Of a DNA stretch of 64,000 nt, positions 2,547 through 45,019 are shown in pieces. This stretch comes from Allobaculum sp. Allo2 (GTDB lineage: Bacteria > Bacillota_I > Bacilli_A > Erysipelotrichales > Erysipelotrichaceae). The notes beneath the pieces were generated by a model. It saw only the letters and a program-made list of their open reading frames with translations, made no database searches and was not told the origin of the DNA. The DNA lies in contig NZ_CP078088.1 in the NCBI RefSeq assembly GCF_022701175.1, forward strand, positions 992,001 through 1,056,000, in the 5' to 3' direction. The translations under genes were made by a program, and so were the position numbers. Each line of letters starts with the position of its first letter. The stretch's first letter is position 1.

Positions 2547-3566
2547 GTGATTGAGCTTGAACATGTCACAAAGACGTTTCAGACAAAAGACGGAACCGTC
2601 AGCGCGGTAAAAGATGTTTCGCTCCATATCAAAAAAGGACAGATCTACGGCATCATCGGATTTTCCGGTGCCGGTAAATCCACGCTGGTTCGCTGCATGA
2701 ACCTTCTTGAGCGTCCGGATGAGGGAAAAGTAATCTTTGACGGCGAAGACTTAATGGAAGCATCGCCCAAAGCGCTGCGTAAAGCCCGTTCGAAAATGGG
2801 CATGATTTTCCAGCACTTTAACCTGCTGCCGGCCCTGACGATTTACGAAAACATCGCCCTGCCGCTGCGGCTGGAAAAACGGCCAAAGGAAGAAATCGAC
2901 GCCAAGGTCATGGAACTGCTGGCGCTGATCGATCTGGTCGAGCGAAAGGATTCCTATCCTTCCCAGCTTTCCGGCGGTCAGAAACAGCGCGTGGCGATTG
3001 CCAGAGCGCTCGTTAACGATCCGAAAGTTCTGCTCTGCGACGAGGCCACTTCGGCACTCGACCCGCAGACGACGCAGACCATTCTGAAACTGATTAAGCG
3101 CATCAATACCGAACGGCACATTACGGTGGTTGTCATTACCCACGAAATGTTCGTCGTTAAGGAGCTGTGCGACGAGGTCGCTATTATGGCCAATGGCCGC
3201 GTAGTGGAACAGGGAGACATCATCCCGATCTTCACCAACCCTCTGCAGGAGATGACCAAGGAGTTCATCGCAACCGCGTCCAACGCCAACAAGGTAGATG
3301 AACTGATTCGTCAGAATCATCCGCTGACCCGCCTGAAAGCCAACCAGCAGCTCGTCAAGCTGCAGTACGATTCGAGCAGCACAGCCGAAGCAATGATTTC
3401 GCACATTTCCAGAGAATTCGGCATCGACTGTTCCATTATTTTCGGAAGCGTCGAAATCTGGAAAGACGAGCCGATCGGCCAGCTGGTAACGATCTTTACC
3501 GGAAGCAACGAGCAGATTGAAAACGCCGTTGCGGATTTGAAAACAGTCATATTCGAGTGGAGGTGA
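2547..3566 (+). CDS. metN: Methionine ABC transporter ATP-binding protein MetN
   Basis: 339 residues, intact. It starts at a GTG 6 nt after GGAAGGAG. The ABC ATPase domain has Walker A GFSGAGKST (residues 38-46), signature LSGGQ, Walker B VLLCDEATS and the switch His in VVITHE. The C-terminal third (about residues 265-339) fits the NIL domain, which binds methionine and inhibits the transporter when the amino acid is plentiful. MetN powers import of methionine, including D-methionine in known members, with MetI and MetQ. It is the first gene after the methionine T-box, and its stop lies 6 nt before the metI start. Long LivF/GlnQ-type ATPases lack the NIL domain, so the call is firm. Confidence 0.95.
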   Translation: MIELEHVTKTFQTKDGTVSAVKDVSLHIKKGQIYGIIGFSGAGKSTLVRCMNLLERPDEGKVIFDGEDLMEASPKALRKARSKMGMIFQHFNLLPALTIYENIALPLRLEKRPKEEIDAKVMELLALIDLVERKDSYPSQLSGGQKQRVAIARALVNDPKVLLCDEATSALDPQTTQTILKLIKRINTERHITVVVITHEMFVVKELCDEVAIMANGRVVEQGDIIPIFTNPLQEMTKEFIATASNANKVDELIRQNHPLTRLKANQQLVKLQYDSSSTAEAMISHISREFGIDCSIIFGSVEIWKDEPIGQLVTIFTGSNEQIENAVADLKTVIFEWR

Positions 3567-3572
3567 TCAAGC

Positions 3573-4249
3573 GTGGACACATTGAGTAACTGGATTCCAA
3601 ACGTCATCGCGTTTGCGGACGAATTCCCCAGGCCATTGTGGATACCCTGATCATGTTAGTGATCACCGGAATCGTCAGCTTTATCATCGCGCTGCCTCTT
3701 GCGGTGCTGGTGGTCATCACCAAGCCCGACGGCATTGCCCCGAATAAAGCGGTCTTCTGGATCCTGGATAAAATCATCAACCTGTTTCGCGCCATCCCGT
3801 TTGTCATCCTGATTCCGCTGATGATGGGGCTGACCCGTCTGATTTTCCATACGACGATCGGTATCAAGATGGCCATCGTTCCGCTCATTGTCGGTACGAT
3901 CCCGTTCATGGCGAGACAGCTGGAATCGGCGATGGAAGAAATTCCCGACGGCATTGTCGAAGCCAGCATTTCCATGGGCATGAGCACCTGGGAAATCATC
4001 TGCAACGTCTATCTTCGTCAGAATATTCCCGGCATGATCCGCGGTCTGACGATCGTTCTGATCGCCGTAATCGGGCAGATCGCCATTGTCGGTACCGTCG
4101 GCGCCGGCGGTCTGGGCGACCTGGCCATCCGCTTTGGCTGGCAGAGACAGATGTGGGATATCACGTTTGTCGTTCTGATCCTGCTTCTGATCATCATTTC
4201 GATCATTCAGTGGATCGGCGACTGGCTCGTGCGCAAGACAACGCATTAA
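3573..4249 (+). CDS. metI: Methionine ABC transporter permease MetI (one frameshift)
   Basis: The inferred product is about 225 residues with five hydrophobic segments typical of MetI. The permease EAA-type loop that contacts MetN is recognisable at EIPDGIVEASISMG. The natural start is the GTG at 3573 behind AGGTGA, giving VDTLSNWIPNVIAFADEFP. The frame is then lost at about 3626-3631 in a CCCC run, where one extra C restores ..PQAIVDTLIMLVITG. Read as given, only the part from 3638 is open. Membrane channel of the MetNIQ importer, in an operon with metN upstream. The single lost base in a homopolymer matches the pattern seen across the window and is probably a sequencing error. Confidence 0.9.
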
Positions 4250-4467
4250 TGAATTAAAAACGCTTAAAACAAACGCTTTCTCCGGCAAATGAAAAAATGC
4301 GGACCATAAAAATTCCACAAAGACGAAAGTGTCTGAATCCAGCCGGAAAGCCTGACTTCATTTCAAATTTGATCTGTATCCTTCTCGCCTGACCGGACCG
4401 GCTGCGCATCCTGACCGGCCAGAGCGAGTCCGATAAAAACATTTCCAGTAAAAGGGAGGAAAACAAA

Positions 4468-5333
4468 ATGAAAAAACTGACTTCGCTTCTTGCCTGCGGC
4501 GCACTCGCGTCTCGCTGGCTGCCTGCTCGAACAGCCAGCCTGCCGCCTCTTCAGCTGCTGCTTCTGCATCCAGTGCCGAAGGCGAAAGAACCACACTGAC
4601 TGTGGGCGCAACGACCAGCCCGCACGCGATCATCCTGGAAGAAGCCAAAGACGCACTGGCCGATCAGGGCATCGATCTGAAAATCGTGGAATTCTCCGAT
4701 TATCCAAACATCAACCCGTCCACATCCGACGGCTCTCTGGATGCCAACTACTTCCAGCACGAACCGTATCTGATCAGCTACGATGAAGACAACGGCTACA
4801 AATCCGGAGATGACGGCTACCTCGTAAGCGCAGGCGCCATCCACTACGAACCGCTCGGTCTGTATTCCGAAAAGCACAAGTCTGTTGATGAAATCGAAGA
4901 CGGAGCAACCATCGTCGTTCCAAACGATGCGACCAACGAAGCCCGCGCTCTGTACCTGCTCGAAAGCCTTGGCTGGATCACGCTTGATGAAGACGCAACC
5001 ATTTCCACGGCAACCGTTCGCGATATCGTCGACAACCCGAAAAACCTCGACATCGTTGAAATTGCGGCGGACCAGGTGGCTTCCAAGCTTCCGGATATCG
5101 ATTACGGCGTAATCAACGGCAACTACGCCCTCGCTTCCGGCGTGGAAGACAAGCTGCTCGAAACCGAAGCTGCGGACTCGGTAGCTGCACAGACGTACCA
5201 GAACGTCATCGCCGTTAAGGAATCCAGAAAAGACGATCCGGCGATCAAATCACTTGTCGATACCCTGAAATCCGAAGAAATCAAAAACTTCATCACTGAA
5301 GAATTCAAAGGAATCGCCTTCCCGGCGAAGTAA
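4468..5333 (+). CDS. metQ: Methionine-binding lipoprotein MetQ (one frameshift in signal peptide)
   Basis: About 288 residues; NlpA/MetQ family substrate-binding protein. ATG at 4468 follows AAAGGGAGG. The N-terminus is a lipoprotein signal, MKKLTSLLACGALA then SLAACSNS, with lipobox LAAC. One base is missing at about 4512-4516, between ALA and SLAAC; without it the protein would appear to begin at 4602. The mature part has the family pattern VGATTSPHAIILEEAK, NPSTSDGSLDANYFQHEPYL and the ending FKGIAFPAK. It captures methionine at the outer membrane face and passes it to MetI. It is third in the metNIQ operon, about 220 nt after metI, and a strong terminator follows. Confidence 0.92.
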
Positions 5334-37020: not shown

Positions 37021-38304
37021 TTAGAGAAGCTTGAGGACGGGCGAGAATTTCTCCAGCACGTACCAGGCGAGGGCAAGCAGGAAGACGGAATCGAATTTGG
37101 TTTTGAGAATGTCGTATTCCGCGGGCAAATGGCCGTTGTTTCGCTTGAGTCCGCCATAAAAGAACGCCATCAGATTCATCGCGCCCATGCGATCCGTCTG
37201 TAAAGTGGAGCCAAGAACAGCCGCCTGCGGATGCAGGAGAAACTTTCCAGACGCCTCAGCATTTCCTTTGTGAAATCGCGCAAATGGTACTGACGGTAAA
37301 AATCCATACCGGCGACTGCAGCCAGACATTCGAGCAGAAGCCCAAACTGGTAGTGCTTCATATACTCGTTTTCCAGTGGCTGCAGCCTGCAGCCCATCAG
37401 CGTTTCGAGGCCTTCGATTAACATGCCGTTTTCGAGCTGAATGTGGCTTCGGTTGAGAATGTCGACGGCCATACGGGAGAGAGAGAGAAGATCAGCGCGT
37501 CGTCCGGATAAAAGGTGTAGACGTAGCCAGGCGCCAGATTCATCGTCTTCAGGGCTTCGAGCCGTCCCTGCATAATCTGATTGCGCAGAGTAGCCGTTCC
37601 AAAATTGAGAAAGCCGGCCAGCGGGACAATCGGGCGGATCAGCAGTTCCGTCTCGTCTTTTTCGTACACAAGATTGTCTCCAGGCTGAGCCAGCGAGACG
37701 AGCGTCATCTTTTTCGCGCCCAGTTCTTTGGCCACACGGCCTAACGACCAGTTGAGAAAACCGCCGTCGCCATAGTAGTCCCCATCAATATTCACGAGCG
37801 AATACGCCGGGAAATAGGCAGCCGAAGCCAGAACGGCCTGCTCCGTTTTTCGGGGAAGTGAGTTCGTTTTTGTAAAGATGCGCGCCTGGTTCTTGCTGAC
37901 GTTGGATGCCAGACACGCGAAGTTCAGACTGGATTTTTCAAAGGCGTCAAAGTCAAAGAGCGAGTGAAACACCTTGGAGAGGGTTTGTGTCGTCGGTCCG
38001 TTGTTCTGAAACGCCTTGACATAGGCATCAAAGCCTTTGTCGGCTTCGTCGGCTGCCTTGTGGCAGTCCGGAAAGGAAAACAGACCGTCGGCCAGACCGC
38101 TTGAAGGAAAGGAAGCAATCATCGACGAAAGATCGACTGGCTTATTCATCGCATACAGCGCGCCGACAATGGCGCCGATCGAAATGCCGGTGACCAGATC
38201 ATACGTTTTTTCTGTTCCATCAGCGTCGTCAAAACGCCGATTGTATAACTGCCCCGGCTGCCTCCGCCGCCAAGGACTAATGCATGGGTATTGGAATTGT
38301 TCAT
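37021..38304 (-). CDS. Patatin-like phospholipase/lipid hydrolase (about three frameshifts)
   Basis: About 428 residues on the minus strand, starting near MNNSNTHALVLGGGGSRGSY at 38304. GGGGSRG is the patatin oxyanion-hole loop. The Ser of the catalytic dyad is in TGISIGAIVGALYAM, restored by one base near 38205. The catalytic Asp is in YYGDGGFLNWS. Such enzymes cleave acyl esters of phospholipids or glycolipids, usually at the inner membrane face; no signal peptide is seen. Frame breaks also near 37485 and 37230. The C-terminal 140 residues are helical and not assigned. The downstream minus-strand hairpin is its terminator. The ArdC-like gene upstream (38416-39338) is on the same strand, about 110 nt away. 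Confidence 0.85.
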
Positions 38305-38415
38305 ACTCTCTATTTTAGGCGTCCGGATCAAGGAGCAGGTCCGGGAAGACCGTATCGATGTCCGGGTAAATCTGGCTGGGAAAACCGCGCACTGGAATCG
38401 ATTTGGTCAGAGCGG

Positions 38416-39338
38416 TCAGGCTTTTGTTTGCGAGGCAGGAGGAGAGCTGGAAGTGCGATGAGCATTCTGTGCACCCGGCGCTGTATCCTTAAGCAGCGTC
38501 TGCAGTGCGAGAAGCATTTTCTGCGCGCAGTTTGAAATGCGCGCGAGGGAAGCGGGAAGCAGTTCTTTTCCCGAAAGCCAGGTGGCGATATAGGCAAAGG
38601 AATACTCGGAACAGTCGATGCCGCAGGCCATGCACACCACAAAGCTTACCGATTCGCTTTCCGTCTCCCGCAGTTCGGGCGACTGAAGCAGACGGTCGAT
38701 GAGCGCCTGTTCTCTGGCATCCATTCGGCTGTGATCGCAGACGCCAAAATTGTGCAGAAGCGCGTGGGCGCATTCGTGGGTGAGCGTTTTAAACGCGTGG
38801 CGGGAGTTCAGCGTTTCGTTAATGCGAATGCGCTGCTCGTCATAGCGGCAGGTGCCGTTGACACCATGTTCGAGCGCGCAGCGTTCGATTTGAAAGCCGG
38901 TCAGCTTTTCGAGCAGCGGTATGGCCGGTTCGAACAAGTCGCATTCGCCTTCGAGCGTTTTAACCTGAGGCGGCGGGGGCAGCGGCTTGCCTTCGGTCTG
39001 GGAAATGTCGAAGACGGAAATGGAGCGAAAGCCGGTGCGGGTTTCGATTTTCTCCTTTGCGGCGTCTTTTGTTTTGACTTTATAGGAATACGGGGCGAGA
39101 ATGCGCAGACCTTTCTCCCCTTTTTGACGTGCCGGCCAAATACGCCCTCCCACGTCTGAAAACCGGCCACCAGACTGGCCTGCGGACACTGTTTGTAGAG
39201 CAGCAAGGTATTGCGCATGGAATAGGACGGAAAGCGGGACATCGTTTTCAAATACTGGCGGTATTCATCGCCTTCGAGCAGCTGGGCAACGCCTTCATCG
39301 AGCAGGGCGAGCAGTTCTTCAATCGTTTTGTTTTTCAT
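38416..39338 (-). CDS. ArdC N-terminal/zincin-like metallopeptidase domain protein (one frameshift)
   Basis: About 307 residues; ATG at 39338 behind GGAGGATGT. The first 110 residues fit the ArdC_N domain: PSYSMRNTLLLYKQCPQASLVAGFQTW then GRHVKKG-EKGLRILAPY. The second half holds a zinc peptidase helix, LTHECAHALLHNFG (HExxH), as in IrrE/ImmA-type zincins, followed by ESVSFVVCMACGID. This architecture is typical of ArdC-like antirestriction proteins and of hypothetical proteins of plasmids and integrative elements. One base is lost near 39122 (CCCC on the plus strand). No relaxase, integrase or conjugation gene is near. The role could be antirestriction, ssDNA binding or peptidase regulation. 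Confidence 0.8.
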
Positions 39339-39388: not shown

Positions 39389-39560
39389 AAACCAGACAAC
39401 GCTCCGATCCGGCCTGGTTTTGAAGGTCTGTACAAAACAAGTCTTTTGTTTGTGCAAACCAGACGATAAACTGACAACGGTTGTGTCCAGATTGCACCGT
39501 TGACAGGATATGGACAAAAGAAAACCAGACCGGGACTGTATAAAGCGGGCCGTCTGGTTT
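39389..39560 (+). repeat. Clustered AAACCAGAC repeats upstream of a secreted protein gene
   Basis: AAACCAGAC occurs at 39389-39397, 39456-39464 and 39522-39530, and as its reverse complement GTCTGGTTT at 39552-39560. A shorter CCTGGTTT lies at 39413-39420. The last direct and the inverted copy can form a stem with a 21-nt loop, 36 nt before the start codon. Spacing of the direct copies is 67 and 66 bp, about six helical turns. This suggests binding sites for a dimeric regulator, or a leader structure. Confidence 0.5.
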
Positions 39561-39595
39561 GGAACCGATTCACGAAAGAGAAAAAGGGGAAAACA

Positions 39596-42478
39596 ATGAA
39601 TCGATCCAGTACAAAAAACAAATGCACACCGCGCTTGCGCTGCTTTGCGCCTGTACGATCAGCTCGAGCATCCTGATGCTGCAGGCGAAAGAAGACCCGG
39701 CAATCCAGACCGAAACGTCCAGGCCGATGCCCGCCATGCCGAAGCGGCCAGTGGAAAAGAAAACCACGGATTCAGAAGAAAGCACAGACAATGGTTTTGC
39801 TTCCAATACACAGGAAAGCGGAAAGTCAGAAGAAAAAGCGTCCGAAGAAGTGCCTCAACAAAAGGGTGAACAAGCGGATGAAAATACCGACACCGAAGGC
39901 TTGGATGAAGCTTCTCCAGCCGATGTTCAGACGAACTGGACGTGGCTGACCTCCCAGAAGGATGGCTGCGTTCTGTATCGTCTGTATAACCCGAACAGCG
40001 GGGAACATTTTTATACCAGTTCGGCCAAAGAGCGCGAAGTGCTGATTTCCTCCGGCTGGAAAGACGAAGATACCGCCTGGAGTACGCCTGTGGAAGATGG
40101 CGAACCGGTGTACCGGCTGTACAATCCCAACGCCTCCGATCATCACTACACGAAAAGCGAAAACGAGAGAAACGGTCTGGTTCAGGCGGGCTGGAAAGAT
40201 GAGGGAATCGCCTTTTATTCGGAAAGCGAATACGGCCGTACGGTGTATCGTCTGTACAATCCCAACGCCCGATCCGGATCGCATCACTATACGCTCTCAC
40301 TCAAGGAGCACAATGCGCTGATTCAGGCCGGCTGGAAAGCGGAAGGAACTGCCTTTTTCGCGATCAGCGATTACGATTTCGCGCGAAACGATAACGGGGA
40401 AATCCACGGCTTTGATTCAGATCAGAACGAACTCAAAGGGCGTGTCGGCCTTTACGACGACTGGTACGAATTCGATGAAACCGGCGTTCTTCAAACCGGA
40501 TGGATCGAAGAAAACGGACAGCCCGATAGGTATTCCATGCCCGACGGCCGTCAGCTTCTCGGCTTTGCGCAAGTTGAGAACGATCGCTATTTCTTCGATC
40601 TCGAAACCGGTTCGATGCACCGAAATACTCTGGAACAGGATGAAAACGGCAGCGAGTTCTGGTTTGACGAAAACGGTCGGGCCGTTTCGGGACGCGTCTT
40701 TGTTTATCCGAAAGTTGGTCAGGCCAGTGCTGAGGGCATTGTCTGGAACACGTTTGGCTGGGATGAAAATCCGGTACGGCACACTCTTCTGCGCCGCAAG
40801 CAGGAACTCGAAACGTATCGCGAAAATCCGGAGGTTCTCGTACAGTGGAATGAAACCTGCAGCAATACGCTGATTCAGGACGCGATTGCCGAATACGAAA
40901 TTGTCCAGAGCGCGCTGAAAAAACAGGAGCACGTATCCGTTTCTTCGGTTTACAATCCGAACAGCGGCGAACACTTTTACACCGCCGATCCCAAGGAAAT
41001 CGCAGGCCTGGTCAAGCAGGGCTGGAAAGATGAGGGCGTGCGCTTTTTGCAGCCGGTCTCTTCGAATACACCCGTGTATCGTCTGTATCAGAGCGCGAAT
41101 GGCGAGCATCACTATACGTGCAGTCCAAACGAGCGGCAGGCGCTCCTTTCGATGGGCTGGAAAGATGAAAACATCGCCTTTTATTCCGCTGAAATCAATC
41201 AGCAGCCCGTGCTGCGGCTCTACAATCCCAACGCGAAAACCGGCTCGCATCATTTCACGCTCGATCGAAGGGAAAAAGAGCGGCTGGTGGAATTTGGCTG
41301 GGAAGAAGAAAACGGCAGCTGGAACGCGCTCAATCTGTATTCGTTTGTGAAGGATCCAGACGATCCGTCTTTCATTACCGCCTTTGATCCCGACGATCAG
41401 CCACTGTATGGCTTTACTTCGATTTTTGGGGATCGCTATTGCTTTGACGAAAGCCAGGGAGGACGCATGCTTACCGGCGAACAGACGTTAACCTTGAACG
41501 ATCAGGTCCATGAATTTCAGTTTGGATCGGATGGAAAAATGGTGACTGGCGAAGTGCAGAAAAGCGGCGGAATCGCTTTTATGATCTCAGTGACGGCCAC
41601 CGTGTGAAAAATTCCTTTGTGCAGTACGGAAATCCGAAAAAGGTTTGCTGGTACGACGAAAACGGCTGGCGCGTTTCCGGACGCAGAAACATCAAGGGCC
41701 ATATGTGCCGCTTTGATGACGCGACGGGTGCACTGATGCCCGACTTTGAAGATCTCCAGCGCCAAATCGAGCAGACGATTGCGAACAGTTCCGCACGAAA
41801 CGCTGAAATTTCCTTTGCGGTTCGCGTGCCCGGACGAGATGAAAAAATTGTGGTGAATTCTCATTCCCAGCAGTCGGCAAGCGTCATGAAGATGTTTGTG
41901 ATGGGCGCCATTTTTGAAAACTACGAACGATACGCCGCGTTTGCGACGCCGATGCGCCTCGAACAGCAGCTTTCGGTCATGATTTCCGTTTCCAGCAACG
42001 ATGCCTGGGTGTATCTGGTGAGCGTCCTGGGCGGCGGCAGTTATTCGGCCGGCATTCAGGTGCTCAACGCCTGGAACCGGGCGCACGGCTACAGTGACAC
42101 GTACATGTCAGGCCGTCCGTACGGCAACTTCACTTCTGCAAAAGATGCCTCGCAGATGTTGTGCGACATTCAGGAAGGCCGTCTGAAAAACTCCAGACGC
42201 ATGAAAACCCTGCTGCAGACGCAGGCCGTCCCCGGTCGTCTGCTCAACGGCATTCCCTCCGAAGCGAGAACCGCCAACAAGCCCGGCTGGCTCGATTTCT
42301 GCCAGAACGATACGGTGCTTGTTGACGCCCCTTTGGCACATACGTGATTACAATGCTCTGCGACGATCTGCCAAGTGCCGCTTCCGGTCAGAATCTGATG
42401 GGACAGGTTTCTCCGCTGGTGTATGGCTGGATGAAGGCGAACATGAATCTCGGCCAGTCCATTCCCGACTGGGCCTGA
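39596..42478 (+). CDS. Exported DUF5648 protein fused to a class-A beta-lactamase-like serine hydrolase (three frameshifts)
   Basis: About 961 residues. ATG at 39596 behind AAAGGGG; one A is lost in the A run at 39609-39615, after which the signal peptide reads KKQMHTALALLCACTISSSIL. A Ser/Glu-rich linker leads to three DUF5648 units (39960-40370; VYRLYNPNASDHHYT type). Wall-binding-type repeats (GWIEENGQ, FDENGRAVSGRV) and a second DUF5648 triplet (40930-41330) follow. The C-terminal domain (from about 41760) has SVMK as the SxxK motif, SSND as the SxN motif and NKPGW in the KTG position. Such domains occur in beta-lactamases and transpeptidase-like proteins. KPG instead of KTG makes beta-lactamase activity doubtful. 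Other breaks near 41585 and 42330. Confidence 0.82.
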
Positions 42479-42680: not shown

Positions 42681-42708
42681 AAAGCCCGATGGAGATCCAT
42701 CGGGTTTT
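42681..42708 (+). terminator. Rho-independent terminator
   Basis: CCCGATGG, loop AGAT, CCATCGGG, then TTTT, with matching As on the left arm. It ends the 39596-42478 transcript. Confidence 0.85.
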
Positions 42709-42775
42709 GCTTCGGCAAAATATTGCCGAAAAGAGAAGAAATCAATCCGACACCGATAAGAAAAGGGGATATATC

Positions 42776-44946
42776 TTGTCAAAACGATTTCTTCTGTCGA
42801 TCGCTCTGTGCTCAGCGCTTGGCCTGAGTGCCATGCCGGCGCTGCTTGTCTGGGCTGACGAAGCGATGCATGAAAGCACGCAGGCTACCGCATCGGATCC
42901 GCAGACCATGCCGGAAAGCACACCGGAAACGGCGTCCGATCCAGAATCTGTCCTGGACAGCGAGCAGGAAATGATGCCGGATACAGCGACCGATCCGGAA
43001 ACAATTCCGGAAAGTACGCCGGCCACCACGCTCGATCCGGAAACGATCCCGGAAAGTGCGCCGAAAGCGCCAGCGGACAGCACACCGGAAGCGCAGGCGC
43101 AGGACATCAACCTGTATGCGCTCGATTCCACGCAGGCAGGCTTCGTGCAGATTCCGCAAAATCTCGCCACGTCCTTCCAGCTGCCCGCAGGCACCTACTC
43201 GTTTGTGTCTCCTAATTCCTGGAACCCGAACGTGGAAATCAGTTCGACCGGTCTGGTCAAGCCGAAAGGAACCGTCTGGTACTGGTCCGGTATTTTCTGG
43301 ACGAGCGGGCCCATTACCGGGGCGACAAAAACGCGTACCCAGTATGAAACCGGAAGGACGACTGTTCGCGTTACGCAAAACGACGGCAGTACGCAGGACT
43401 TTACGTTTAACGTCCTGAACTACGCCGATGACGTCTATGCGCCGCAGCGTCTGGAAGAGCTGATAAAGGAATATATTCCAGCCGGGGCAACGCCGTATCA
43501 GGTGCTGGAAGGCGCCTGCAAACTCGCCGCCAGCTTCGACTACAGCGGCAAGGCGTCCGACTGGAAGAGCATGATTCTGGTCGGCAGCGGCGACTGCTGG
43601 GCCAGTTCGTATAGGATTCAGAAAGTCTTTGAAGATTATGGAATCGAAGCGCGCGTGCGCAATGCCAACCGGGATCCCGGCGCCTTAAGCGGATACCGCA
43701 ACGGCATCGCCTAAATCGAGGACCGTTATTTTGTTGCGGATGCCGGTAATGACGGAAAAGCGCCGCGCCATTATTCCATTCTTCCCAGCGACGGCTATTT
43801 CTATTCGTTCGACCGCAGTACCCAGACGAATACGCTGTATCAGTACGACGCGTTTGATACCGATGTGAAGATTCCAACCGAACGAAACGGCCACCCCGTA
43901 ACCGCTCTGGGCGAGAGGGTCTTTGATAAGAGAATAAACACCGTGCATATTCCGGCGTCGATCCAGACGATCACGTCCATTCATACGACCGACCAGGGCG
44001 TCCGCTCGGGTACGTTCTCCTATGCAGAAGGCCTTCAGAACATTTACGTGGATCCCGCCAATGCAAACTATACGGACATCGACGGCGTTCTCTATTCAAA
44101 AGACGGAAAAACGCTCGTTCAGTTTCCAGCAGGCCGCAGCGGTTCCTGCACAATTCCCGCAGGCGTAACCGCAATTGGCCCAGGCGCCTTTTACTCGACG
44201 CATCTGACCAGTCTGGAACTGCCTGCCTCAATGGCATCGACTTTGGCGACCATGCCAGTGTCAAATACCGCAGCACGGCGACAAAAGGCAATCTGGCCGA
44301 CGCGCAGATCGATTCCATCCCCGCGCAGACGTATACCGGTCAGCCCCTGACGCTGCAGCTAGTCGTTCGCCTTGATGGCCAGGAACTGACGCTCAATGTG
44401 GATTACACGCTGAGCTATTCCAATAACATCGAAGCGGGAACCGCGACCGTTACCGTAACCGGCATCGGCTATTACGAAGGTTCGAAAAATGCGACCTTTA
44501 CCATCCGCACAAACGGCACAAGCCGGCCGGCGACCAAACGGATCATGTACCGTCTGTACAATCCAAACTCCGGCGAGCATTTCTATACCGCCGGTACGCG
44601 CGAACAGAACTATCTGCTCAGTGTGGGCTGGAAAGATGAAGGCATCGGCTGGATTGCGCCGCTTTCTTCTCAGCATCCGGTTTACCGTCTCTACAACGCG
44701 AATGCGGGCGACCATCACTGCACGATGGACGCCAGAGAGCGCGACCAGCTCATTAAGTTTGGCTGGAAAGACGAGGGCATCGGCTGATATTCCGATGACA
44801 GCCAGAGCGTACCGCTCTATCGTCTGTATAACCCGAACGCAAAAGGCACCGGATCGCATCACTACACGACCGACGAGCACGAACGCAATTACCTGGCCGC
44901 TAACGGCTGGAACGCCGAAGGCATCGGCTGGTACGGCGTTCACTAG
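42776..44946 (+). pseudogene. Exported transglutaminase-like/BspA LRR/Ig/DUF5648 protein, disrupted by two nonsense codons and a frameshift
   Basis: Starts at TTG 42776 behind AAAAGGGG, with signal peptide MSKRFLLSIALCSALGLSAM. A repetitive ATDPETIPEST linker follows. The transglutaminase-like domain has Cys in GSGDCWASSYRIQKVF; the usual SGHRN His appears as Tyr (SGYRN). Then come BspA-type LRR_5 repeats (PSIQTI, SYAEGLQNIYVD, PAGVTAIGPGAFY), one Ig-like repeat and three DUF5648 units ending GIGWYGVH. Two in-frame stops are present: TAA at 43712-43714 just after SGYRNGIA, and TGA at 44785-44787 where its paralogues have Trp (GIGW-Y). One base is also lost near 44235. The nonsense changes are substitutions, unlike the other lesions of this window. 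It is a shorter relative of the 5610-9058 protein. Confidence 0.75.
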
Positions 44947-45019
44947 TTCAGTCCAAGCCAATCCGAAACACTCGAAAATTCAATGCAGAAACGGCGGATT
45001 CGCCCGGGAAACTTCCAAA

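Follow-up and report, generated by a model that had tools for sequence, protein, structure and literature searches.

An exported PBP-A-like wall protein of Allobaculum with a clade-specific change in the third catalytic motif

The 64,000-nucleotide stretch of Allobaculum sp. Allo2 DNA analysed here (the window) encodes an exported wall enzyme of an ordinary kind, whose C-terminal serine-hydrolase domain carries a clade-specific change: its third catalytic motif reads KPG in place of KTG. On sequence comparison, this is a real change that is fixed in one Allobaculum clade, and it probably alters either the enzyme's substrate or its inhibition by penicillin. In penicillin-recognising enzymes KTG hardly varies, since this motif holds the substrate. 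A clade in which its Thr has become Pro or Ala, with the rest of the pocket kept, is a natural experiment on substrate change or on escape from penicillin. In addition, PBP-A-like domains, which the accessible part of PMC11189452 describes from cyanobacteria only, are extended here, at the level of fold and of a missing glutamate, to Allobaculum and to wall-attached proteins of gut Bacillota.

Organization of the gene

The gene (Table 1) begins at an ATG immediately preceded by a G-rich, ribosome-binding-like stretch. Its two DUF5648 domains (PF18885), each composed of three repeat units, pass the cut-off of 25 bits. The wall-binding repeats of this copy are real but weak: Choline_bind_3 (PF19127) reaches 24.5 bits in the frame at 39559-41607, below its cut-off of 27, glucan_65_rpt scores 35 bits against a cut-off of 147.7 in the first set, and in the second set residues 1-19 of the frame starting at 41577 give another weak glucan_65_rpt match. 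In contrast, the orthologue of A. mucilyticum 128 (L064, NZ_CP078089.1), which has the same order of domains in an unbroken 990-residue frame, contains a Choline_bind_3 match of 74 bits that passes this cut-off, together with two DUF5648 domains and PF13354. The repeats would bind glycans of the wall. The initial annotation had described an exported protein of 960 residues with six DUF5648 units, wall-binding repeats and, at its end, SxxK, SxN and KPG in the order expected of a beta-lactamase fold, and all of these features were recovered.

Table 1. Features of the gene and of the protein that it encodes (positions in the window)
Feature	Position	Strand	Remarks
Whole gene, exported multidomain protein	39596-42478	+	about 960 codons over several frames; intact in relatives
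Hydrophobic signal-peptide-like stretch MHTALALLCACTISSSILMLQA	39622-39687	+	read directly from the sequence
DUF5648 no. 1, three repeat units	39973-40362	+	PF18885, 172.4 bits
Wall-binding-like repeats, first set	40390-40690 (approximate limits)	+	weak Choline_bind_3 / glucan_65_rpt
DUF5648 no. 2, three repeat units	40945-41328	+	PF18885, 144.3 bits
Wall-binding-like repeats, second set	41390-41735	+	contains frame change at T-run 41577
Catalytic domain, PF13354 (Beta-lactamase2)	41736-42478	+	contains C-run frame change at 42328; tail in third frame
Motif 1, SVMK (nucleophile Ser, Lys)	41880-41891	+	read in the sequence
Motif 2, SSN	41991-41999 (SSND to 42002)	+	read in the sequence
NFT after the shortened omega region	42126-42134	+	no acidic residue from DTYM to NFT
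Motif 3, KPG replacing KTG	42279-42287 (NKPGW, 42276-42290)	+	read in the sequence

The catalytic domain and its closest known relatives

The frame at 41577-42344 matches PF13354 at 60.7 bits (E = 1.7e-16; curated Pfam cut-off, 22). Set against the residues that characterise class A enzymes, SVMK supplies the Ser and Lys of SxxK, and SSN retains the Ser and Asn of the SDN-type motif with a different middle residue; no catalytic Ser, Lys or Asn is lost. The third motif is neither KTG nor KSG, and the omega loop, shortened to SGRPYG, has no acidic residue at the place of Glu166. Because this glutamate is missing, a functional class A beta-lactamase appears unlikely. The hydroxyl of the third-motif Thr or Ser contacts the carboxylate of the substrate, and Pro, which has no such side-chain hydroxyl for the use that DD-peptidases and lactamases make of it, may mean that the usual recognition of D-Ala-D-Ala is lost. 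Thr235 of class A enzymes has been held to aid substrate binding, and its replacement by Ser is by itself sufficient to lower the activity of CTX-M-14 (PMC9837174, accessible part).

The check that had been suggested for the domain, structure prediction, was carried out on the A. mucilyticum orthologue, whose catalytic domain likewise carries KPG and is 65% identical to that of the window, and the outcome agrees with a serine hydrolase. The AlphaFold2 model of this orthologous domain (72 sequences; pLDDT 95.8, pTM 0.92) has the serine-hydrolase fold with the pocket motifs in the right order: a long helix (47-60) starts with the Ser, helix 87-97 follows SDN, and strand 177-185 contains KPG. The full-length model of the orthologue is poor outside its C-terminal part (mean pLDDT 64.1), with block means of 82-92 for residues 681-740, just before the catalytic domain. 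When the entries listed by Foldseek for the orthologue model were compared with VIA-align 2, LRA-5 (8EO5, 8EO6, 8EO7; Z 29.8-29.1) and PBP-A of Thermosynechococcus elongatus (TLL2115; 2J7V, 2J8Y, 2J9O, 2JBF; Z 29.1-28.6) were tied at the top, with ordinary class A enzymes about 1-3 units lower, and the PBP-A match had an rmsd of 2.1 over 226 residues at Z 29.1. Foldseek's own ranking of matches to this model places 4ewf first and gives PBP-A a TM of 0.81-0.82. By profile, the top solved relative is again PBP-A (67.7 bits), with entries named beta-lactamase next.

PBP-A resembles the window's domain in SxxK, in SxN and in a class A-like fold (judged here on the orthologue model) without the deacylating glutamate of the omega loop; in the profile alignment, its residue equivalent to Glu166 sits in an insertion relative to the PF13354 family of the window. 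It differs in that it keeps KTG, is about 23% identical, and has neither DUF5648 nor wall repeats in the aligned chain. According to the accessible part of PMC11189452, PBP-A is both a DD-carboxypeptidase and a DD-endopeptidase, prefers amidated muropeptides, and does not have the catalytic omega-loop glutamate of class A enzymes. LRA-5, a metagenomic class A-like protein, also lacks Glu166, having Val at this position, and shows insignificant activity on beta-lactams in the available portion of PMC12777564; unlike the Allobaculum protein, it comes from soil and has been described as a beta-lactamase precursor.

Distribution of the third motif among relatives

Scanning of genome contigs with an alignment of the family yielded at least 588 pattern matches and at least 390 confirmed relatives. 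The best 80 loci were taken, and these gave 82 domains longer than 150 residues, shorter matches being dropped. Among these domains, from the best 80 of at least 390 loci, SxxK, SxN (SDN in 76, SSN in six) and KxG are present in 82 of 82, a result that is partly one of selection, since the scan patterns contained the three motifs. The third motif itself is KTG in 78, KPG in three and KAG in one; all four of the non-KTG domains belong to the Allobaculum clade, and outside the genus KTG is found in 78 of 78. A second sample, which overlaps the first, covered the family: 36 of 272 genomes had a match, and 30 loci were obtained (matches below 120 residues dropped). Inside the genus, it again contained three KPG and one KAG, whereas the 26 loci outside the genus comprised 19 KTG, six KSG and one degenerate row, so that 25 of the 26 have KTG or KSG. 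Thus, among the relatives sampled (the best 80 of at least 390 loci and the family sample), Pro or Ala in place of the Thr or Ser is seen only in the Allobaculum clade, and it is in this residue that the Allobaculum proteins differ from the PF13354 serine hydrolases of other gut Bacillota, which carry the same domain, mostly at the C-terminus, with SH3_3, Amidase_3, ChW or choline-binding-like modules.

KPG is known from five genes in three genomes, including the window copy, and KAG from one further gene. In a tree of 72 domains (71 of the 82 together with the window piece), the KPG and KAG rows form a single clade with support of 100/99, and the KPG rows alone are joined at 100/100. Pairing of the third motif with Trp (KxGW) is not exclusive to these proteins, as KSGW is found elsewhere. 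In viral contigs there were 40 pattern matches, none of which was a relative, and PHROGs contained no match to the catalytic domain.

DUF5648 and the company of the catalytic domain

Fusion of DUF5648 to a serine hydrolase of this class had initially been regarded as unusual, and this view was not supported. All five genomes of the genus contain between 19 and 57 DUF5648 matches each, and the idea that the fusion is the surprise was therefore rejected. Among ten DUF5648 open frames chosen from the 30 loci of the window's genome, eight contain another Pfam domain (GH25, GH5, CAP twice, trypsin, transglutaminase, FIVAR and Amidase_2) and two do not. DUF5648 is a stock module in Allobaculum, where its carriers include muramidase, amidase, cellulase and protease proteins. 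Within the relatives of the catalytic domain it is found in three of 82 (L064, L067 and also L068, which lies outside the genus; best 80 of at least 390 loci).

The partners of the catalytic domain in these 82 full-length relatives, again from the best 80 of at least 390 loci, are SH3_3 (10), Amidase_3 (seven), Choline_bind_3 (seven) and ChW (three), followed by ricin-type lectins (two) and by M15_4, phage lysozyme, C39 and GH3 (one each). As judged from domain content, such partners suggest a role at peptidoglycan and surface glycans. For DUF5648, the ligands proposed are glycans, O-antigen or alpha-glucan for instance, and not specifically the cell wall. DUF5648, choline, serine hydrolase and beta-lactamase all go unmentioned in the main text of PMC8409761, on Allobaculum, and, judged by title and the start of the abstract, the papers found on PF13354 or beta-lactamase2 combined with wall terms and those on Allobaculum and peptidoglycan included none on this type of protein.

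Proposed function and alternatives

These findings have led to a model that we favour with somewhat better than even confidence, in which the protein is a wall-bound, PBP-A-like DD-peptidase that acts on peptidoglycan and whose binding of the substrate carboxylate is altered; an enzyme of this kind is suggested by the comparisons with PBP-A, LRA-5 and Thr235. The protein would be attached to the surface by its wall-binding repeats and two DUF5648 modules, and its C-terminal domain would act like PBP-A, as a low-molecular-weight DD-peptidase. The Ser at 41880, activated by the Lys of SVMK and the Ser of SSN, would attack a D-Ala-containing bond in the stem peptides of peptidoglycan, and the resulting acyl-enzyme would be released by hydrolysis without the Glu166 of class A. 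KPG occupies the strand whose Thr or Ser hydroxyl is normally the contact for the substrate carboxylate. Loss of this residue would make a free terminal carboxylate less preferred and favour, for instance, cross-links (an endopeptidase activity) or an amidated or ester end, and the Pro would perhaps also lower the affinity for penicillin.

The DD-peptidase reading is supported by the peptidoglycan enzymes and wall-binding modules that accompany the domain in its relatives, and by the presence of a GH25 muramidase and an Amidase_2 protein among the other DUF5648 proteins of the window's genome. Against it, the Pro may abolish the usual recognition of D-Ala-D-Ala, the full-length orthologue model is poor beyond its C-terminal part, an amidase partner is a minority condition (seven of 82 relatives, best 80 of at least 390 loci), and the glycans proposed for DUF5648 are not specific to the cell wall. 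Furthermore, although the gene directly downstream of the A. mucilyticum orthologue encodes a PF00912 peptidoglycan glycosyltransferase, this neighbour is not conserved, the best match in the window's genome being about 250 kb off. The initial annotation had argued from the modified KTG that the substrate is a peptidoglycan or an ester instead of a beta-lactam. The lack of the omega-loop glutamate and the fusion of relatives to peptidoglycan hydrolases do support a non-beta-lactam substrate; the step of the argument that starts from KPG is only suggestive.

The main rival, considerably less probable than the DD-peptidase but still credible, is an esterase, in which the altered third motif would allow removal of ester-linked groups, such as the D-alanine of teichoic acids or acyl groups of glycans, and not of peptide-linked D-Ala. 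DltE of L. plantarum, which belongs to another, R61-like branch of the beta-lactamase/PBP fold, provides a precedent: with SxxK kept but motifs 2 and 3 altered, it fails to bind penicillin and acts on lipoteichoic acid as a D-Ala esterase (PMC10241514). The restriction of Pro and Ala to the Allobaculum clade among the sampled relatives also speaks for this reading. However, of motifs 2 and 3 DltE retains only a Tyr (Tyr213, in motif 2) and a Gly (PMC10241514), whereas the protein here preserves motif 1, motif 2 (SSN) and, in motif 3, both Lys and Gly, and the fusion of relatives to peptidoglycan hydrolases likewise speaks against an esterase. Slightly more doubtful again is the proposal that the Allobaculum protein is a naturally penicillin-insensitive serine hydrolase, held by DUF5648 on mucosal or wall glycans, whose substrate, either a cross-link or a teichoic acid or glycan ester, has no free carboxylate.

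It is unlikely that the hydrolase domain has become inactive in Allobaculum, leaving the protein as a surface adhesin or regulator. Such a loss might be read from the missing Thr of KTG and from an omega region six residues shorter than in most relatives: the spacing from SDN to NxT is 48 residues in 65 of the 82 domains and 42 in the four rows of the Allobaculum clade (best 80 of at least 390 loci). Yet the 42-residue spacing also occurs in KTG relatives in Faecalitalea and others in the same set, and the Ser, Lys, SxN, Lys and Gly are kept in all six genes of the genus, with identity to the window copy down to 43%; in an inactive domain, one would expect some of these residues to be gone.

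Less likely still is that the copy in this strain is a true pseudogene, so that any function would apply to its relatives only. This possibility is raised by two clear frame changes and one probable one in 2.9 kb. The coding part switches frame twice, near 41577 and near 42328, each time at a homopolymer run. Since the ATG at 39596 and the signal-peptide-like stretch, as read, occupy different frames, a third change is probable near the A-run at 39613. However, runs of 4-6 bases underlie all of the changes, and the same assembly treats housekeeping genes no better. With ParE and ParC orthologues as queries against the genome, four genes were matched, parE, parC and two paralogous genes at 394930-399189, presumably gyrB and gyrA (gene names were judged from the beginnings of the proteins); all four are split, with six frame changes among them. 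In addition, four of about 27 DUF5648 domains in the genome (31 matches, including four adjacent pairs) are split between frames, and the assembly, a single contig of 2.73 Mb, has a listed completeness of 58.4%. Because housekeeping genes are split in the same way and close relatives are intact, the breaks look like assembly errors, and the housekeeping-gene control led us to reject a pseudogene as the main reading.

Finally, the class A-like fold and the large share of class A enzymes in the list of structural matches might suggest a secreted class A beta-lactamase that defends the cell against beta-lactams. This reading is highly improbable and was rejected, given that nothing aligns with Glu166, that KTG is altered, and that LRA-5, likewise without Glu166, is nearly devoid of such activity (PMC12777564, available portion).

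Related genes and genomic neighbourhood

Two other PF13354 proteins are encoded in the window's genome (L001, 2420155-2420769; L002, 305786-306250), and in the profile alignment the third-motif region of the first is divergent and reads KIG. A second KPG gene of A. mucilyticum (L066:1977-5885) looks as if an insertion sequence has broken it: its signal-bearing frame of 350 residues and the KPG catalytic domain are separated by a DDE transposase gene (3176-4486). This transposase shares its beginning with the one encoded upstream of the orthologue in L144 (8330-9640).

Within the window, the next gene (42689-44960, + strand) encodes an exported-looking DUF5648 protein with a weak match to BspA-type leucine-rich repeats and is split over frames. 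On the other side, at 38416-39338 of the - strand, there is one gene split into two frames, which combines an ArdC N-terminal domain with a metallopeptidase-like part (DUF6782/M78-like); genes of the ArdC and metallopeptidase-like type are typical of mobile elements. Beyond it, a patatin-like phospholipase gene (37421-38331, - strand; 24.4 bits, below the cut-off of 27.7) is again split over frames. A T-box leader RNA is found at 2254-2485 of the + strand (105 bits).
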